From NCBI RefSeq assembly GCF_008868175.1, contig NZ_WBKT01000002.1:1-64000 (forward strand): DNA of 64,000 nt. The letters run 5' to 3'. Position numbers and translations under genes: made by a program. The stretch comes from Micromonospora sp. AMSO31t. Lineage in GTDB: Bacteria > Actinomycetota > Actinomycetes > Mycobacteriales > Micromonosporaceae. The notes under the pieces were generated by a model that did no database searches, had not been told where the DNA came from, and saw nothing but the letters and a program-made list of their open reading frames with translations. Position 1 is the first letter of the stretch; each line of letters starts with the position of its first letter. This document shows, in pieces, positions 27,586 through 38,419 of this stretch.

Positions 27586-28527
27586 TCACATCATGAGCAG
27601 GGGCTCCCCATGGCTGACCGCCGCCCATTGCCGGGTCGCGCGTTCGAGCTTGTCGGGGTTTGCCTGGGTACGGCAGGCAGTGATGCCCTCGGCCGTGACC
27701 TCCAGGCACATGATGGCGACGACCCGGCCTTCCACGACCGCCACAACGGCGGGTTCGCCATTGGCGGTCCAGGGGTAGATCTCGGGCGAGCCGCCGACGA
27801 CGGCGCGCTTGGCCTCGGCGGGCTTGAACAGGCCCCGCAGGAACTTCGCGACCGCGACGGCTCCCTCGAACGCCCTGGTGCGTGCCGGAACCTTCCCTCC
27901 GCCGTCGCCGATGGAGATGGCGTCCTTGGTGAGCAGGCGTACGAGCTCATCGGTCCGGCCACTGGTGGCGGCCGCGAGGAACTCCGCGGCGATCCGCTGG
28001 GCGGCGGCCCGGTCGATGTCGGTGCGGGCTTTGCCGTACGCCACATGCTTCTTGGCGCGGTGAAAGATCTGCTGGCTGGCGGCCTCGGTGATGTCGAGGA
28101 TCTCGGCGATCTCCCGGTGCGGGTAGTCGAAGGCCTCTCGCAGCACGTACACGGCCCGCTCGTTGGGGGACAGGCGCTCCATGAGGGTGAGGACCGCGTA
28201 CGAGACCGATTCGCGCCGCTCAGCGGTGTCGGCCGGGCCGAGCATCGGGTCCCCCGCCAGCAGCGGCTCGGGGAGCCATCGACCCACGTAGGTCTCGCGG
28301 CGTGCCCGCGCGGACGTGAGCTGATTGAGGCACAGGTTGGTGAGTACCTTCGTCAGCCAGGCCTCGGGGACCTCGACGCGGTCGACGTCGGCGGCCTGCC
28401 AGCGCAGGAATGTCTCCTGCACGAGGTCCTCCGCCTCGTCCGCGGAGCCGAGGAGACGGTAGGCGATGGCCTCCAGGCGGGGCCTCGACAGCTCGAATCG
28501 GTCGACGTCATCCACCGTCAACGGCAT
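27586..28527 (-). CDS. ECF41-type RNA polymerase sigma factor (SigJ-like)
   Basis: A 313-residue sigma factor from ATG 28527 (MPLTVDDVDRF); upstream in-frame residues look untranslated. Region 2 is RPRLEAIAYRLLGSADEAEDLVQETFLRWQ and region 4 is LSPNERAVYVLREAFDYPHREIAEIL. A SnoaL-like C-terminal extension follows, with the two hallmark motifs of ECF41 factors: DGGGK at 208-212 and NPDKL at 290-294. In this group the extension, not an anti-sigma factor, modulates activity. The known habit of regulating a neighbouring oxidoreductase fits the frameshifted gene downstream. Confidence 0.93.
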   Translation of the reverse strand: MPLTVDDVDRFELSRPRLEAIAYRLLGSADEAEDLVQETFLRWQAADVDRVEVPEAWLTKVLTNLCLNQLTSARARRETYVGRWLPEPLLAGDPMLGPADTAERRESVSYAVLTLMERLSPNERAVYVLREAFDYPHREIAEILDITEAASQQIFHRAKKHVAYGKARTDIDRAAAQRIAAEFLAAATSGRTDELVRLLTKDAISIGDGGGKVPARTRAFEGAVAVAKFLRGLFKPAEAKRAVVGGSPEIYPWTANGEPAVVAVVEGRVVAIMCLEVTAEGITACRTQANPDKLERATRQWAAVSHGEPLLMM

Positions 28528-28627
28528 GACCTGATCATATTTCCCGCCACGCCTCCAGCCGATCACGGCCCACTCGTATGGCTTACCGGGGGAGGCTGCG
28601 GCAAGAGCGCAGCGATAGCCTGCCGTC

Positions 28628-29233
28628 ATGGGGAGCGCCGAACTGGACGAGTTGATCGTCGCGGACGCCGACGCGCTGCGGGTGTGGTTGTCGGCCAACC
28701 ACGCCACGTCGCCCGGTGTCTGGCTCGCCCTGACCAAAAAGGGCGGCACAGTCACGACGCTGACCTGGCAGCAGGCCGTCGACGAGGCCCTGTGTTTCGG
28801 CTGGATCGACGGGCAGGCCCGTAAACGGGATGAGGAAACCTCCTGGATCCGGTTCACCCCGCGCAGGCCCCGCAGTTCCTGGTCGCAGCGCAATGTCGCG
28901 CACGTGGCCCGGCTGGAGGCGCAGGGGCGAATGCTGCCCCCAGGTCGCGCCGCGGTAGAGGCCGCGAAGGTGGACGGGCGCTGGGCGGCCGCCTACGCCC
29001 CGCCGTCGGAAGCCGAGGTGCCGGCCGACCTGCTCGCCGCCATCGCCGCCGACCCCGCCGCCCAGGCCATGTTCGACGTGCTCACCAAGACCAACCGCTT
29101 CGCTCTCATCTACCGCGTCAATGCCGTCAAACGGGCGCAGACCCGCGAGCGGAAGATCGGCGAGTTCGTTGCCATGCTGGCCCGTCACGAGACGATCTAC
29201 CCGCAGAAGGCCAAGCCTCCGAACTCACCGTGA
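28628..29233 (+). CDS. YdeI/OmpD-associated family protein
   Basis: A 201-residue cytosolic protein from ATG 28628. It carries the family pattern: an acidic N-terminus, VWLALTKKGG, LTWQQAVDEALCFGWIDGQ, RFTPRRPRSSWSQRN and a C-terminal RERKIGEFVAMLARHE. The family is linked to stress or antimicrobial-peptide tolerance in some bacteria, but its biochemical role is not established. Divergent from the sigma gene; the shared 100 bases could hold an ECF41 promoter, which I could not identify with confidence. Confidence 0.85.
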   Translation: MGSAELDELIVADADALRVWLSANHATSPGVWLALTKKGGTVTTLTWQQAVDEALCFGWIDGQARKRDEETSWIRFTPRRPRSSWSQRNVAHVARLEAQGRMLPPGRAAVEAAKVDGRWAAAYAPPSEAEVPADLLAAIAADPAAQAMFDVLTKTNRFALIYRVNAVKRAQTRERKIGEFVAMLARHETIYPQKAKPPNSP

Positions 29234-29539: not shown

Positions 29540-29788
29540 GCAGCCACACCGCGCCGAGTTCGCTCGCTGGCCCCGCGGCAAGCGCCAGCACGGCGGGCAC
29601 CGCCAGCCCGGCGGCGGCGAGGAAGCGGACCCACGTCGGGAAAGGCTCTTCATCGATGACGTCCTTCAGCGCACCGGGACCTTCGCGCCCGGTGTCGTCA
29701 TCCACGACATTGATGACCGACGACGCCGTTAGGTAGCCTCTTACACGCTCTGACAACGTCTGACGCCGGCGTCTGACATGGGGGATGC

Positions 29789-30829
29789 ATGGAGAACCAG
29801 CGTGCTGCGGGTGAGTTAGGTCCGGACCGCGTGGCCGCCGAGACATTCGCCGAACAGCTGCGGACACTGCGGACCGACGTGGGCAACCCGTCGTTCCGAA
29901 AGATGGCCGGGCGGTCGGGCCGGATCTCGCACACCACGCTGCACGAGGCTGCCGCTGGGACCAGGTTTCCCTCCTGGGAGACCACGCGCGAGTTCGTCCG
30001 GGCCTGCGAGGCCGACGAGGCCCAGTGGCGGTGCCGCTGGGAGGATGCCCAGCACCCAAGAACAGCCCACGCCGGTCCAGACGACGCCCAGACACCGGTC
30101 ACCACCGATGCCCAGACCGGGGCCGGCATGTCCGACGCTGTGACGACCCGCGTCGTGGCCGCCGAGACGTCCCGCGCCGCGACCGCTGCGGCGGCCGGTG
30201 GGCCCGTCGTGTCCGGAGTCACCACGTCCGCCGACCTCGTGCCGGCGGGCCCACGCGCGCTGCGGGTCGCGGAGCACCTGCCGGCGGTGCAGGACGAGGT
30301 CACGGGTGCGCGACGGCACCCCTTGCCGTGGCTCGCCGCCGCGGCGACCGTGGTGGTGGTGGCGTTGGTCGCCGCCCTGGGCTTCGCCGTCCGCGGCCGG
30401 TCGTCCCCGGGCGGCTCGGGCGCCGCAGCCGCGTCGCGGTCCCCGTCGCCGTCGGCGTTCTCGGACGCGTTGATTCCCGGGGACTCGAGCAAGTTCGTCG
30501 CCGACGTCACCATCCCCGACGGTACGCGGGTGAAGGTGAACGCCCGATTCGAAAAGGTGTGGGCGCTCAAGAACGTGGGATCGGTCGACTGGCACAACCG
30601 CTTCCTCGCGCGGACGAACCCCACCGTTGACGATGACGACTGCCAGACACCGGACCGGGTGGCGATCGGCGACACGCCGCCTGGCGAGCAGGTGATGATC
30701 AGTGTTCTGGTCACCGCGCCGATCCGCCCCGGGAAGTGCTGGGTCAGCTGGAAGATGGTCGACGAGCACGGGCAGGAGTACTTCCCCAGCCGCCGGCCGG
30801 TGTACTTCATGGTCACCGTCATCGCCTGA
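29789..30829 (+). CDS. Membrane-anchored HTH protein with NBR1-like (four-tryptophan) domain
   Basis: A 346-residue protein from ATG 29789, with GGGGGA just upstream. Residues 18-85 form an HTH-like region of the actinobacterial XRE-related type (FAEQLRTLRTD, ISHTTLHEAAAGTRFPSW). A Thr/Ala-rich linker leads to one membrane segment at 181-201 (WLAAAATVVVVALVAALGFAV), then a low-complexity Ser/Pro stretch, then an outside domain at about 233-345. That domain matches the NBR1 Ig-like FW domain: W258 (KVWALKN), W268 (VDWHN), W318 and W321 (CWVSWKMVDEHG). The HTH faces the cytosol and the FW domain the outside, a layout suited to a one-component transmembrane sensor. It precedes three secreted cell-wall genes. 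Confidence 0.85.
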   Translation: MENQRAAGELGPDRVAAETFAEQLRTLRTDVGNPSFRKMAGRSGRISHTTLHEAAAGTRFPSWETTREFVRACEADEAQWRCRWEDAQHPRTAHAGPDDAQTPVTTDAQTGAGMSDAVTTRVVAAETSRAATAAAAGGPVVSGVTTSADLVPAGPRALRVAEHLPAVQDEVTGARRHPLPWLAAAATVVVVALVAALGFAVRGRSSPGGSGAAAASRSPSPSAFSDALIPGDSSKFVADVTIPDGTRVKVNARFEKVWALKNVGSVDWHNRFLARTNPTVDDDDCQTPDRVAIGDTPPGEQVMISVLVTAPIRPGKCWVSWKMVDEHGQEYFPSRRPVYFMVTVIA

Positions 30830-30837
30830 GCGCGCCT

Positions 30838-30870
30838 GGCGGCGGCCGCGGTCAAGCCCGCAGCGCCGCC
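30838..30870 (+). terminator. Possible terminator after the NBR1-domain gene
   Basis: GGCGGCG at 30838-30844 can pair with CGCCGCC at 30864-30870, with a smaller inner GCGG/CCGC stem. It starts nine bases after the stop. The stem is interrupted, so confidence is low. Confidence 0.35.
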
Positions 30871-31093
30871 GCCCCGGTCGGTCTGCCGGATCCGGGGTCG
30901 CCCCGATCGGTGTCAGCGTGCGACCGCTCGATGTCAGCCGCGGGTGCCGCCCAACCTGACAACACCGCATCCATCGAGGTCGGTGACGGCCTGACGGATC
31001 TGACAGGGCAGCGGGGGTACCGAACAGCACGTCTCTTCTCGCAGGGTGAGGTCCGTTCCGAACGAGACTCACCAGCTACGAGGAGGACCGAAC

Positions 31094-31957
31094 TTGCGCC
31101 GTCCCTGGTTACCCGTCGGGCTCGCCGCGCTCTGCGTGGCCGTCGGCGTCCCGGCCCATGCGTGGGCCGCGACATCCGGCGCCACAGCGCAGCGGACCGT
31201 CGCCACGGCCGCGCGGCCTGTCGTGGACATGGAGGCCACCGTCCTGGCCGCCCAGATCGACCCCCGCCGTGCCGACAACACACTGACCCCGGGCGCGAAG
31301 AGTTCGGTGCTCGCCGTGGAGCAGGCGCTCCAGGCTTCGAACCTGCTGAACGCGCAGTGGGTCGACGGCTACTTCGGCACCCAGACCGTCTCGGCGTACG
31401 CGGCCTACCAGCGCTCGCTCGGCTACACCGGCCTGGCCGCGAACGGGCTGCCCGGCACGACGTCACTGACGAAGCTCGGGCTCAACCGGTACACCGTCAG
31501 CAAGACGATCGGCCCGGGCGCGAAGGTCCAGCGTGACGGGTACGTCGTCAACGCCCGCACCCAGGCGATGCTGGCCGAGGCCCAGCGTCTGCTCGGCTAC
31601 ACCCTGGTGCTCGAGCAGGGCTCGTACAACCCCGGGGGCGACCCGACCTCGGCCGGTACGCACGACGGCGGGGGTGTCGTGGACATCGCGGTCACCGGCA
31701 TGACCGCGGCCAAGCGCACCGCCGTCGCCCGGGCTCTGCGCCGGGTCGGCTTCGCCGCCTGGGTCCGTGACCCCAGTCAGGGTGACTGGCCGTGGCACAT
31801 CCACGCCGCGGCGATCAACGACACCGACCTGTCCAGCCAGGCGCAGCACCAGGTCGGCGACTACTACCTCGGCATGAACGGCCTGGCCAACCGTGGCCCG
31901 GACGACGGTCCCCAGGTTCCGATCATGACCTGGGAGCAGTACCAGCGCGGGCAGTGA
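31094..31957 (+). CDS. Secreted peptidoglycan-binding, M15-like zinc peptidase
   Basis: The start is TTG 31094, fixed by AGGAGG at 31081-31086 with seven bases spacing. The 287-residue product has a signal peptide (cleavage after AHAWA), a peptidoglycan-binding helical module at about 70-135 (VLAVEQALQASNLL, GYFGTQTVSAYAAYQRS) and a C-terminal domain with a zinc motif of the M15 type: H190 x6 D197 (GTHDGGGVVD) and H235-I-H237 (PWHIHAA). Family knowledge suggests a D,D-carboxypeptidase or related cell-wall peptidase; an additional catalytic Glu is not certain. It lies between the NBR1-domain regulator and two other secreted enzymes in one direction. Confidence 0.8.
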   Translation: MRRPWLPVGLAALCVAVGVPAHAWAATSGATAQRTVATAARPVVDMEATVLAAQIDPRRADNTLTPGAKSSVLAVEQALQASNLLNAQWVDGYFGTQTVSAYAAYQRSLGYTGLAANGLPGTTSLTKLGLNRYTVSKTIGPGAKVQRDGYVVNARTQAMLAEAQRLLGYTLVLEQGSYNPGGDPTSAGTHDGGGVVDIAVTGMTAAKRTAVARALRRVGFAAWVRDPSQGDWPWHIHAAAINDTDLSSQAQHQVGDYYLGMNGLANRGPDDGPQVPIMTWEQYQRGQ

Positions 31958-32009
31958 CCCGCAGCCGACCCGATCCACCACCATCGCTCACTGTCCACGA
32001 GAGGACACC

Positions 32010-32789
32010 ATGAACATCCGCAAGAACCTCGCCGTCGTCGGCGCAGCGCTCGCCGTGACCACCTCCATCCTGACCGTCGCCTCGCCGGCGCAGGCGGCGT
32101 CCCGCGACGGAGTCTGCGACAGCGGCGAATTCTGCTACTTCTACAACAGCAACTACGCCGGCTCCATCTCGGACTTCACCGGGTCGATTGAGGACTACGG
32201 CACGACGCAGCCGTCCTGCTACGAGTTCAAGGGCGCGGGCGCAGGCCAGGGCCTGTGCGTGAAGAACAACGCCGCGTCGGTGTGGAACCGCACCAGCAAG
32301 ACCGTGGTGGTCTACTTCAACAGCAACTTCGCCGGTGCGAGCCAGTCGTTCGCGGCCGGGGCGAAGGCCAACCTCAACGCGACGTTGAAGAACAACAACG
32401 CCTCGCACAACATCGGCGGCACCAGCGGCACCTACCCGGCCGACCCGCGCGCCGCCGAGGCCGTCGCGTTCGCGAAGGCACGCCTCGGGCACACCGACTG
32501 GAACAACCAGTGCGAGCTGTTCGTCGAGCGGGCGTTCGGCACCAGCGGGCGGTTCGCCACGGCCCGCACGCACTACCAGTGGCAGAAGGACAACGGGCGC
32601 ATTCACACCGGCTCGGTGCCGCCCGCCGGAACGGCGGTGTTCTTCACGTCCACCACGTCGGCCGGGCACGTCATGCTCTCCATCGGCGGCAACAGCGCCA
32701 TCAGCACCGGGCCGACCGTCTACCAGACCAACACGTTCCGGGACCGGTCCGACTACCTGGGCTGGGCCTACGTCCCCAGCGGCTGGTGA
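32010..32789 (+). CDS. Secreted I36-domain protein with NlpC/P60- or CHAP-like cysteine peptidase domain
   Basis: A 259-residue exported protein; ATG 32010 follows GAGAGGA, and the signal peptide ends at SPAQAAS. Residues about 31-135 are a peptidase-inhibitor-I36-like beta module (CDSGEFCYFYNSN, VWNRTSKTVVVYFNSNFAG) with four Cys. The rest is a papain-fold amidase: C168 in NNQCELFVERAFG and H220 in SAGHVMLSIGG are the likely Cys/His pair. Probably a cell-wall hydrolase tethered by the I36 module. Six bases separate it from a paralogous gene that has the same I36 module. Confidence 0.85.
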   Translation: MNIRKNLAVVGAALAVTTSILTVASPAQAASRDGVCDSGEFCYFYNSNYAGSISDFTGSIEDYGTTQPSCYEFKGAGAGQGLCVKNNAASVWNRTSKTVVVYFNSNFAGASQSFAAGAKANLNATLKNNNASHNIGGTSGTYPADPRAAEAVAFAKARLGHTDWNNQCELFVERAFGTSGRFATARTHYQWQKDNGRIHTGSVPPAGTAVFFTSTTSAGHVMLSIGGNSAISTGPTVYQTNTFRDRSDYLGWAYVPSGW

Positions 32790-32795
32790 CCCGGC

Positions 32796-33728
32796 ATGCG
32801 GATGACCTTCCTGAAGAAGTTTTCGGCCACTCTGGCCGTCCTGATGGTGGCGCTCGTCGGCGTTACGGTGGCGCCGGGCGCGGCGTCCGCCGCCGCCCGC
32901 GACGGGGGCTGCGACAGCGGCGAGTTCTGCTACTACTACAACAGCAACCAGGCCGGCTCGGTCTCCGACTTCACCGACTCCCTGGACGACTACGGCACGA
33001 CCCAGCCGACCTGCTACGACTTCAAGGGCGCGGGCGCCGGCCAGGGCGTGTGCGTGAAGAACAACGCCGCGTCGGTGTGGAACCGCACCGGCAAGACCGT
33101 GCGGGTCTACTTCAACAGCAACTTCGCCGGTGCGAGCCAGGACTTCGCCGCCGGGGCGAAGGGCAACCTCAACGCCACGCTGAAGAACAACAACGCCTCG
33201 CACGAACTGCTGAGCGGGCCGACGGGCTGCAGCACGGACGGCACCAACAGCAAGCTGCCGAGCACCATCCTGGTCTACCGGGTCAGTCTCGGGCGGGTCG
33301 ACCGGGTCGACTTCAAGACGTACGTCAAGAACGTCCTCCCGAACGAGTGGGTCCCGAGCTGGCCGAGCGCCTCGCTGGAGTCCGGCGCCGTAGCCGTCAA
33401 GAGCTACGGCTGGTACTGGGCGCTGCACTCGACCCGCAAGACCCCCGGCGGTCAGTGCTACGACGTCCGTGACGACACCGGCGACCAGGTCTACCGGCCG
33501 TCGTCGACGCAGGCGTCGACGTCCGCCGCGGTGGACCGCACCTGGTCCACCCGGATGACCCGCAGCGGCAACATCCTGCAGGCGCACTACTGCGCGACCA
33601 CGACCGCGTGCGGTGGCTGGGTGACCGGGGACTGGCTGTCGCAGTACGGCTCGCGTGATCTCGCGAACTCGGGCAAGAGCTACCAGGCGATCTTGCGCTA
33701 CTACTACAGCGACGTGGTCATCTCCTGA
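32796..33728 (+). CDS. Secreted I36-domain protein with SpoIID/LytB domain
   Basis: A 310-residue exported protein, start ATG 32796 or 32802. After the signal peptide (ends APGAASAAA) comes an I36 module more than 80% identical by eye to that in the previous gene. The C-terminal domain is SpoIID/LytB: ILVYRVSLGRVDRVDFKTYVKNVLPNEW with catalytic Glu candidate E184, then SLESGAVAVKSYGWYWAL. SpoIID enzymes cleave the glycan of peptidoglycan lacking peptide stems (lytic transglycosylase). So the two tandem proteins share a targeting module and together could attack stem peptides and glycan. Followed by a strong hairpin. Confidence 0.9.
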   Translation: MRMTFLKKFSATLAVLMVALVGVTVAPGAASAAARDGGCDSGEFCYYYNSNQAGSVSDFTDSLDDYGTTQPTCYDFKGAGAGQGVCVKNNAASVWNRTGKTVRVYFNSNFAGASQDFAAGAKGNLNATLKNNNASHELLSGPTGCSTDGTNSKLPSTILVYRVSLGRVDRVDFKTYVKNVLPNEWVPSWPSASLESGAVAVKSYGWYWALHSTRKTPGGQCYDVRDDTGDQVYRPSSTQASTSAAVDRTWSTRMTRSGNILQAHYCATTTACGGWVTGDWLSQYGSRDLANSGKSYQAILRYYYSDVVIS

Positions 33729-33742
33729 CCTCCCGCGCGAAC

Positions 33743-33778
33743 CGTGCCGTCCGCCGCAGATCCGCGGCGGACGGCACG
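33743..33778 (+). terminator. Strong intrinsic terminator of the cell-wall gene cluster
   Basis: A perfect 15-bp stem (CGTGCCGTCCGCCGC and complement) with loop AGATCC, 14 bases after the stop of the SpoIID-domain gene. It separates this cluster from the opposing alpha/beta hydrolase gene and could serve both strands. Confidence 0.85.
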
Positions 33779-33887
33779 CTCGTGGCTGCGGCACGTCTCG
33801 GCCCCACCCGTCGCCGCGCGGCGACGCGGCTACCGTCTCGGCGTACGCGGCACCCTGGCCACTGAGTGGGCCTGCCGGAGGACGTTC

Positions 33888-35735: not shown

Positions 35736-36047
35736 CGGGCGGTCCCTTCCAGTCAGTGGTGTCGACAGGTAGACCGCCGCAGCATCTCAGAATCATCGGC
35801 CGGCCAGTGACCAACCCGCCGACCGACCGCGGGGCGCGGACGACGCCGCGCACGCAGCGGAACCGGAATCGTGTTCGGGTTATCCCGACCGCGCCGCGCG
35901 GCGCCGAGGGCGGCAGCCATCGCTCACCGGGCGGTCACGACCGAAAGATCGCCGTGAGCGGGTATGACGCGATGGCGAGCCCGTGCCGGGCAGGTGCCCG
36001 TAGCCTGTCATGAGGCGAGGACGGTGCGGGGGGTCCGGAGGACGTCG
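35736..36047. other. Intergenic region upstream of ltrA
   Basis: Divergent promoter region between the DHFR-like gene and the first ltrA gene. Apart from the ribosome binding site GGAGGA near 36037 I see no recognisable signal. Confidence 0.3.
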
Positions 36048-37233
36048 ATGGTGACCGAAGGCGACGCCAACGCGGCGACTCCGACGCCACGGGACCCCGG
36101 CCGCCCGGCGTTCCTGGAACTCTTCTTCGATCTGGCGTACGTCTTTGCGCTGATCTCCCTGGTCAGGACGCTCGCCGCCGACGTGAGCTGGACCGGCGTC
36201 GGCGAGACGCTGGTCCTGCTGCTCGCGTTCACCCTGGTCTGGGCGGTGACCACGTGGGCTGCCGACACCCTGGACCTGATGCGGCCCGCGGTCCAGGTGC
36301 AGTTCATCGGGGTGGCGGCCGGCAGCCTGCTGCTGGCGGCCGCGGCACCCGCCGCCTACGACGGGCGCGGCCTGCTCTTCGCGCTCAGCTACTTGGCGAT
36401 CCACCTCGGTTCGAGCATCTACTACCTCCTGCTCCGGCCGAGCGCGAACGAGCCGGTCCGCAGCGGCCGGATCTTGTTCTGGTACACGATCGCCGCCGTC
36501 GGCTGGATCGGCGGCGCGCTGGCCACCGGCCCCACCCGCCTCCTGCTCTGGGCCGCGACCGTCGCCATGGAGTACGTCGCCGCCTCGCTCGGCTGGCCGC
36601 TGCCCAAGCACGGGCGGTCGCAGCCGCAGGAGTGGCGGCTGGTCGGCGAGCGGGTGGCCGAACGGTACCGGCAGTTCGTCATCATCGCGCTCGGCGCGTC
36701 CATCTTCGTCATCGGGACGACCTTCAGCTTGAGCGACTACACCGCGGACCGGGCGTGGGCGCTGCTGGTGGTGTTCGCGATCGTGGTGCTGGCCTGGCGG
36801 ATCTACATCTACCGGGCCGGCGAGCTGCTGACCGAGGCCATCGCGCGATCGGCGAACCCGTCACTGCTCACGCAGTCCGCCGCGGTCACTCACCTGATCA
36901 TGGTGGCGGGCATCGGCGGCATCGGTCACGAGTCACCTCGTCGTGATGCGTCCCTTCGGGGAGACGCCGCCCTCGTGGGCTGCGGTCATCCTCGGCGGGC
37001 CGGTGCTGTTCCTGGTCGGTCGCGGAGTGCTGGACTACACGGTGTTCGGTCGGATATCCCGGTCCCGGCTGGCCGGGCTGGTCCTCCTGGCCGGCGCGGC
37101 GCCGGCCGCGGGCCTGCTGCCGCCGGTCGTGGTCGCGCTGCTCGCCATGAGCGTCCTGGCCCTGGTCGCGGCGGCGAACCTGGTCAGCACCCACCGGCAC
37201 GCCCGCGCGCCGATGCCACCGGCGCTCGGGTGA
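36048..37233 (+). pseudogene. ltrA family (low temperature requirement protein A) membrane protein, frameshifted
   Basis: ATG 36048 follows GGAGGA with six bases spacing. The first part has the LtrA opening FLELFFDLAYVFAL and many hydrophobic helices, up to HLIMVAGIGGIGH near 36929. The rest (SHLVVMRPFGETPPSWAAVILGGPVLFLVGR ... HARAPMPPALG) continues one base out of frame to 37233. Joined, the protein would be about 394 residues with about ten membrane helices, a normal LtrA size. The extra or missing base lies in GGTCACGAGTC, not in a homopolymer. Function of the family is poorly known. Confidence 0.8.
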
Positions 37234-37236
37234 CCG

Positions 37237-38419
37237 TCAGGTCGGCACGGTGACCCGGACCGGCCGCGCGTGTGCGGGCAGCGTCTCCCAGGCCAGGATG
37301 AGCACCAGCACCAGATTCGCCACGACCAGGATGGCCAGCGGCGGAAGCAGCACCATCACGGGGCCGATGACGCACAGCACCACGATCCCCAACGCCCGGG
37401 ACCAGAGGATCCGTCCGGTGACCACGGCGTCGAACAGGCAACTCCCGAGCAGGAACAGCGCCGGCCCGCCCAGGCTGGCGGCGACCCAGGCGGCCGGTGC
37501 CGCACCGGACGGCTGGTCGATGACCAGCGAGACGCTGGTCGACACCACCAGCACCCCGGCCACCATCACCAGGTGGCTGTAGGAGGTGGGGGTGCCGGGC
37601 CGGACCCGCTCCACCACCATGACGGCCGGCGGTGCCAGCAGCTGCCGTACCCGGAGGAAGTAGAGCTGGAAGAGCACGACAGCGCCGGCGAACCCGACGA
37701 AACTCGTGGCCACCCGACCGGCCTGGAAGCCGCTGCCGGCCAACCCGATGCCGCCGCTCAGGATCAGCTCGCCGAGGGAGATGATGAAAATTTCCCGATG
37801 CCGCTCGGACAGGTGCGTGCCGGTGAAGATCTGACTGGCCAGTTCGGTGCGACCAAGTTTCGGCGTCGGCCAGCCCAACCGGGCCGACCCGAGGTCGACT
37901 GCCACCGCGACCGACCAGAGCAGCAGCCGGGCCGTTTCCGTGCACGAACGCCCCGGCCACCCACGGCAGTGCCGTGACGCCGAACCAGAAGAACACCCGG
38001 ATGCTCCGGGCCTGGATCGGGCGGTTCACCCGGGTACCGGGGATGAGGACGGCGTCCCGGACGAGATGGATGCCGAAGTACGCCGCGACGAGCAGCCAGC
38101 CGTAGTCGTCGAAGGCGTACGGCACCGCGATCGCCATCAACAGGGTGCCGAACATGACCGCCAGGACGGTGGCCTGGATGACCGGCAGCCGCGGGTTGAA
38201 CAGATCGGTGAGCCACGCGGTCAGTACCCAGACCCACCAGGCGGCCATCAACAGGACGGCGGTCTGGGCGGCGCCCCGGACGGTGAGGTCCCCGGCCAGC
38301 CCCGCCGAGAGCCTGGAGAGCATGAAGATGTAGACCAGGTCGAAGAAGAGCTCCAGGAACGTCGGATAGTCAGGCTCGCCGCGCCGACGAAGGATCCGGG
38401 GGAGCGGGTCGGGCCTCAC
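37237..38419 (-). pseudogene. Second ltrA family gene, opposing and frameshifted
   Basis: GTG 38419 has an excellent GAAGGAGG seven bases upstream. The N-terminal part (FLELFFDLVYIFMLSRL) runs to VAGAFVHGNG near 37938; the remainder (ARLLLWSVAVAVDLGSARLGWPTPKLGRTE and on to VRVTVPT) is one base out of frame and ends at 37237. This gene and the plus-strand ltrA meet tail-to-tail with three bases between stops. They are clearly related proteins (GWPLPKHGRSQ versus GWPTPKLGRTE), so an inverted duplication is likely. Confidence 0.8.

Follow-up and report, generated by a model that had tools for sequence, protein, structure and literature searches.

A 64,000-nucleotide stretch of the genome of the soil bacterium Micromonospora sp. 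AMSO31t (contig NZ_WBKT01000002.1, positions 1 to 64,000; hereafter the window) carries four genes on its plus strand, which we designate A, B, C and D, all confirmed and in this order. A encodes a candidate membrane-tethered regulator, followed by B, C and D, which encode predicted secreted peptidoglycan-degrading enzymes. A preliminary description of this DNA had read them as a possible envelope-sensing island; the four-gene set, its shared strand and order, and the export signals of the three enzymes are all present in the sequence, and the interpretation itself is supported. The features of the locus are as follows.

29710-29739, plus strand: predicted promoter of gene A, TTGATG-N18-TAGCCT, conserved in 20 loci from three genera.
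29740-29778, plus strand: operator-like direct repeats CTTACA, CTGACA, CTGACG and CTGACA, spaced by 10, 10 and 13 bp, conserved across the 20 aligned loci.
29789-30829, plus strand: gene A, 346 aa, encoding a candidate membrane-tethered regulator; HTH_31 domain, variable linker, one transmembrane (TM) helix and, outside the cytoplasm, an FW domain of the NBR1 type.
30911-31005, plus strand: operator-like boxes 5' of gene B; TGTCAG at 30911 and at 30932, CTGACAACACC-N-AGGTC at 30956-30981, CTGACG at 30991 and CTGACA at 31000.
31031-31088, plus strand: predicted hairpin in the 5' leader of B, pairing the Shine-Dalgarno sequence GAGGAGG (31080-31086); candidate translational control.
31094-31957, plus strand: gene B; signal peptide, peptidoglycan-binding domain and M15-like (clan MD) metallopeptidase domain.
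32010-32789, plus strand: gene C; signal peptide, I36 domain and CHAP/NlpC-type cysteine hydrolase domain (M23 in most other Micromonospora).
32796-33728, plus strand: gene D; signal peptide, I36 domain and SpoIID-type glycan-cleaving domain, starting 6 nt past the C stop codon.
33743-33778, plus strand: terminal hairpin after D, with a 15-bp stem, a 6-nt loop and no T tract.

The N-terminal region of A matches the Pfam family HTH_31 (6.9e-6; 26.7 bits, cut-off 27), a single hydrophobic helix spans residues 183-201, and residues 241-333 match N_BRCA1_IG (3.5e-16; 60.2 bits, cut-off 28). In the AlphaFold model, a five-helix N-terminal domain (residues 12-88, with predicted local distance difference test scores mostly >90) is followed by a TM helix (184-199) and a beta sandwich (234-345). 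The top PDB matches of the model in Foldseek are NBR1 (4ole, 7e-9) and ILRUN (6vhi, TM score 0.85 by target length), and the sequence search is concordant. The profile score and the Ig-like fold together assign the outer domain to the FW family. The compact helical domain, the membrane helix and the FW domain of the preliminary description are thus all borne out by prediction, and the protein has the predicted layout of a transmembrane transcription regulator, with a DNA-binding domain and a TM helix in one chain. The claim of four tryptophans at NBR1-like positions holds for three: W258, W268 and W321 align with Trp residues of NBR1/ILRUN, but A lacks the C-terminal Trp of NBR1 and its W318 is not conserved. 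The Cys285/Cys317 pair is kept without exception in 33 homologues and recurs in the other membrane versions checked; a soluble helix-turn-helix (HTH)-FW protein of Rhodococcus fascians lacks it, a pattern consistent with an extracytoplasmic disulfide. Among named relatives of gene A, the nearest, from Micromonospora sp. MA102, is 91% identical.

Translation of B is likely to start at TTG 31094, after GAGGAGG, rather than at GTG 31046. Its description as a peptidoglycan-binding M15-like peptidase stands in part: the PG_binding_1 match is weak (0.00095, Pfam) and the M15-type HxxxxxxD...HxH metal-ligand pattern is invariant in 16 homologues, but Pfam M15 gives no match. The structure model of B is weak, and its weak Foldseek matches include VanY and Hedgehog-N, both clan MD folds; the B profile matched no PDB sequence. 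The peptidoglycan-binding module is 46-48% identical to the binding modules of Streptomyces phage endolysins.

C and D share a feature that the preliminary description had overlooked, a domain of the Pfam family Inhibitor_I36 (C, 2.5e-13, 50.2 bits; D, 3.5e-12, 46.5 bits; cut-off 21.1). The I36 domains of the two proteins are 83% identical, and 88% identical as DNA. In three genomes (loci L091, L092 and L103) the I36 sequences of C and D are reciprocal nearest relatives within their own genome at the DNA level, which fits gene conversion. The enzyme domain of D matches SpoIID (1.9e-11; 44.9 bits, cut-off 23), confirming its assignment as an exported SpoIID-type enzyme, and scores 74.7 bits against NCBIfam TIGR02669, slightly under the cut-off of 83.3. 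The papain-fold amidase proposed for C is less fixed. Its enzyme domain scores under threshold (NLPC_P60, 21.1 bits against 23; CHAP, 19.3 against 26), with the NQCELF and GHVML motifs retained in CHAP-type orthologues, and in four genus genomes (G002, G023, G029 and G033) the I36 domain is kept and the C-terminal domain is an M23 peptidase. The I36-M23 form also occurs in most other set-bearing Micromonospora, and M. arborensis carries I36-M23 and I36-CHAP in tandem. The enzyme domain of C is therefore exchangeable, on sequence comparison, between CHAP and M23, and the presence of I36 in two enzymes suggests that it may be a targeting module.

Spaced boxes of one family occur at the promoters of both A and B. 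The A repeats sit immediately downstream of the A promoter -10, and CTGACR occurs three times in 100 bp of this region against 0.27 expected (p = 0.001); the A-B intergenic region contains five against 0.42 expected, a number reached in 0 of 2000 shuffles. Regulon searches in the genome were made by sequence pattern only, and gave one exact genome match each for the three-box A pattern and for the B composite CTGACAAC-N-AGGTC. The core of the boxes upstream of B is conserved in 20 loci, and CTGACAAC also stands upstream of B in L211, L212, L213 and L215, which include Streptosporangiaceae-like loci. In all five Prauserella loci, three TGAC boxes with 10-bp spacing lie between divergent genes. 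The boxes common to the A and B promoters add support for regulation, with A as the putative binding protein, and A may repress its own gene, because the boxes sit downstream of its -10.

The same evidence bears on whether A acts on DNA at all. A could be a membrane scaffold, with the cytosolic helical domain binding protein and the FW domain tethering the secreted hydrolases at, or recruiting them to, a site of growth or division. RodZ, the subject of PMC6946637, likewise joins an XRE-like HTH, one TM helix and an outside beta-sandwich domain and has a role in wall growth. Eukaryotic FW domains are protein binders, with an N-terminal Gly-Gly tail among their targets (PMC9233695). However, A has regularly spaced, conserved boxes at its own and the B promoter that suggest DNA binding, its long HTH-to-TM linker varies in both length and sequence, and Pfam finds no RodZ_C in it. 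A scaffold role of this kind appears improbable. We consider it likely that A is a one-component regulator, anchored in the membrane, that acts on its own gene and on B-C-D, a modular secreted kit for degrading peptidoglycan.

Two predicted RNA structures frame the enzyme genes. In the B leader hairpin, 94% of pair cells are kept in 19 sequences, only one pair is changed on both sides, the z-score is -2.0, and an Rfam search of the leader gave no match. The hairpin said to close the operon after D is present (-41.7 kcal/mol for 33736-33790), though without a T tract, and all 20 loci have a comparable hairpin after D. A scan with strict sigma-70 and terminator consensus patterns detected neither the promoter nor the terminator of the set.

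We next consider the distribution of the set, with genes in the compared loci called by a purpose-written script. In a survey of the same genus, 7 of 37 genomes carry all four full-length genes together; orthologues of A, C and D are absent from the remaining 30, a few of which have B paralogues of 63% identity. Judged from these sequences, co-occurrence of A-B-C-D in the genus exceeds chance. The Micromonosporaceae locus set comprised the window and 19 loci from a search with gene A alone, and all 19, from Micromonospora, Actinoplanes and Asanoa, contain A, B, C and D, giving 20/20 in the co-occurrence search suggested by the preliminary description, with rearranged versions in other families. 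Neither of the two outcomes named there as refuting the idea was seen, as the neighbours stay together and the HTH region is predicted with high confidence to form a compact helical domain. M. lupini Lupac 08 also has the set. In one of them, from Actinoplanes regularis (L105), the set is split by 4.3 kb, and a B and I36-M23 pair (L105:15288-16957) lies that distance downstream of an A-C-D block.

In a class-wide sample, the FW family was found in 17 of 297 genomes. In one further family, B-C-D is followed by a co-directional A in L211, and likewise, without C, in L212; B-C-D is convergent with A in L213 and L215; and L209, L214 and L216 hold partial versions. The convergent order is that of L213, L215 and L218, which belong to Nonomuraea and to a family designated f31; Nonomuraea gerenzanensis (Streptosporangiaceae) has this order, suggesting that f31 is the Streptosporangiaceae. 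The Prauserella A gene points away from a divergent peptidoglycan-binding M15 gene, which an M23 gene follows. The linkage of A with hydrolases is retained through four different gene orders.

Several observations weigh against a regulator and its dedicated enzymes. The HTH_31 match of A lies slightly under the Pfam cut-off, and the M15 assignment of B and the CHAP assignment of C are under theirs; B paralogues exist without A; no clear -10/-35 elements were identified for the B promoter; and of about 12 Amycolatopsis loci with a relative of A, 0 have it beside wall hydrolases, so A and hydrolases are not linked everywhere. The A homologues of several class-level genomes also stand without hydrolases. 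Such homologues, and flanking genes that mostly differ from clade to clade, would suit linkage without regulation, in which the four genes travel as an accessory block and A regulates other genes. This is unlikely in our view, given that the A and B promoters carry the same box family in patterns without a second exact genome match and that the linkage survives four gene orders. A mobile-element origin was rejected: among plasmid records, near-full-length relatives of D and A occur only in an 11.8-Mb Nonomuraea record, which is chromosome-like. An empty-site comparison found the upstream OmdA gene nearly universal in the genus, with its other neighbours not conserved.

Distribution also informs which walls the enzymes act on. 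The operon may serve the wall of the producer, in controlled autolysis, spore separation or germination, or envelope-stress repair, a role compatible with A as regulator. SpoIID-type enzymes work at division septa and in engulfment (PMC6635528), HTH-TM genes of a DUF2690 type (described below) likewise adjoin lytic enzymes, and envelope monitoring is a fitting task for a regulator that reads the outer face of its own membrane. Accessory occurrence, with the full set in a minority of genus genomes, speaks against it, as do the domain swaps and extra copies, which suggest diversifying targets. We regard an own-wall role as a serious possibility that falls short of probable. Walls outside the producer, those of neighbours or dead cells, are slightly favoured over self-remodelling, given the accessory and modular nature of the set and its absence from most relatives.

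No description of this gene set was found in the literature searched, which lay outside subscription sources, in agreement with the preliminary statement that no such system was known; bacterial XRE-FW proteins had already been reported (PMC9233695, PMC9582228). Transmembrane transcription regulators of the ToxR/CadC type are a known class (PMC10269533) and, like A, hold a DNA-binding and a sensor domain in one membrane-held protein, but where they have a winged helix A has an XRE-type HTH_31, and its sensor is an FW domain. The main text of that survey contains none of the terms XRE, NBR1, cell wall and peptidoglycan. Known XRE-FW proteins, such as that of Rhodococcus fascians (PMC9582228, Fig. 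2; PMC9233695), join HTH to FW as A does, but the protein encoded on the R. fascians D188 plasmid has neither the TM helix nor the Cys pair, and is not beside wall hydrolases. The C-D pair resembles SpoIID with its partner amidase, in sporulation and in the Chlamydiales SpoIID-AmiA pair, in joining glycan cleavage to a stem-peptide enzyme; it differs in being secreted, in its common I36 domain and in a CHAP or M23 partner, and Pfam finds no SpoIIP or SpoIIM domain among the operon proteins. Unlike the Streptomyces phage endolysins with related binding modules, B has a signal peptide and belongs to a chromosomal, apparently regulated operon. The FW domain of NBR1 serves in cargo recognition; no role assigned to FW domains in bacteria was found in the literature searched.

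We propose a mechanism in which the cytosolic HTH_31 domain of A would bind the CTGAC boxes arrayed in tandem at the promoters of A and of B-C-D, while the extracytoplasmic FW domain would sense something at the cell surface or wall. Once triggered, A would change expression of three secreted enzymes able jointly to dismantle peptidoglycan: B through wall binding and M15-like peptidase activity, C as an I36-bearing CHAP amidase/endopeptidase or M23 endopeptidase, and D through I36 and SpoIID glycan cleavage. Through their common I36 domain, C and D are probably brought to the same surface; there C would strip or loosen stem peptides, enabling D to cut the glycan. In Waddlia, SpoIID follows an amidase and digests denuded glycan (PMC6635528), and sequential action of C and D on one surface is plausible by this precedent. 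The pair would then be the functional equivalent, in secreted form, of amidase and SpoIID acting together. We infer DNA binding by A, its control of B-D, and the activities and cooperation of the enzymes.

A related arrangement occurs with another outer domain. In L079, L080 and L081, an HTH_31-TM regulator with an outside DUF2690 domain is divergent from a secreted SH3-CHAP gene, followed in L080 by an SLT_3 lysozyme-like gene, and the intergenic region holds a 10-bp TGAC repeat as at A. Another FW/DUF2690 pairing is seen on the Rhodococcus fascians plasmid (L220:2046-3417), where a small secreted DUF2690 protein is encoded divergently from the soluble HTH-FW protein. Tentatively, and leaning against it as yet, we raise the idea of a new class of actinobacterial surface-sensing regulators, made up of HTH_31-TM proteins whose outside domains (FW, DUF2690) are interchangeable and which use a shared TGAC operator with 10-bp spacing. 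Each would govern a secreted pair of an amidase/endopeptidase and a glycan-cutting enzyme, and FW would read a protein end or wall fragment at the surface.

Directly upstream of A and divergent from it, at least 11 loci carry a gene, designated E, for a 138-aa secreted Cys-rich protein (L106:7457-7873 and L093:7446-7862, both minus strand, with equivalents elsewhere), which is 86-97% identical between Micromonospora and Asanoa. The window retains only a frameshifted remnant of its start, at about 29560-29653 on the minus strand. No Pfam family scores over cut-off in E, and it has no significant similarity to DUF2690; speculatively, E might be the ligand of FW or an inhibitor. Elsewhere in the window lie two LtrA-like genes in inverted orientation (35964-37253, plus strand; 37205-38377, minus strand), the minus-strand copy matching in separate pieces and frames and appearing broken, and a gene for an extracytoplasmic function-type sigma factor whose C-terminal part weakly matches SnoaL_2 (27586-28893, minus strand).

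With an FW domain outside a predicted membrane regulator, a widely kept gene set and visible operator candidates, the ligand and regulon of A are directly testable. The modular gene C, in which either CHAP or M23 is joined to one kind of I36 domain, offers a natural series for studying the targeting of wall-lytic enzymes. If the proposed regulator class is real, it would give a defined bacterial function to a domain of the autophagy receptor NBR1.

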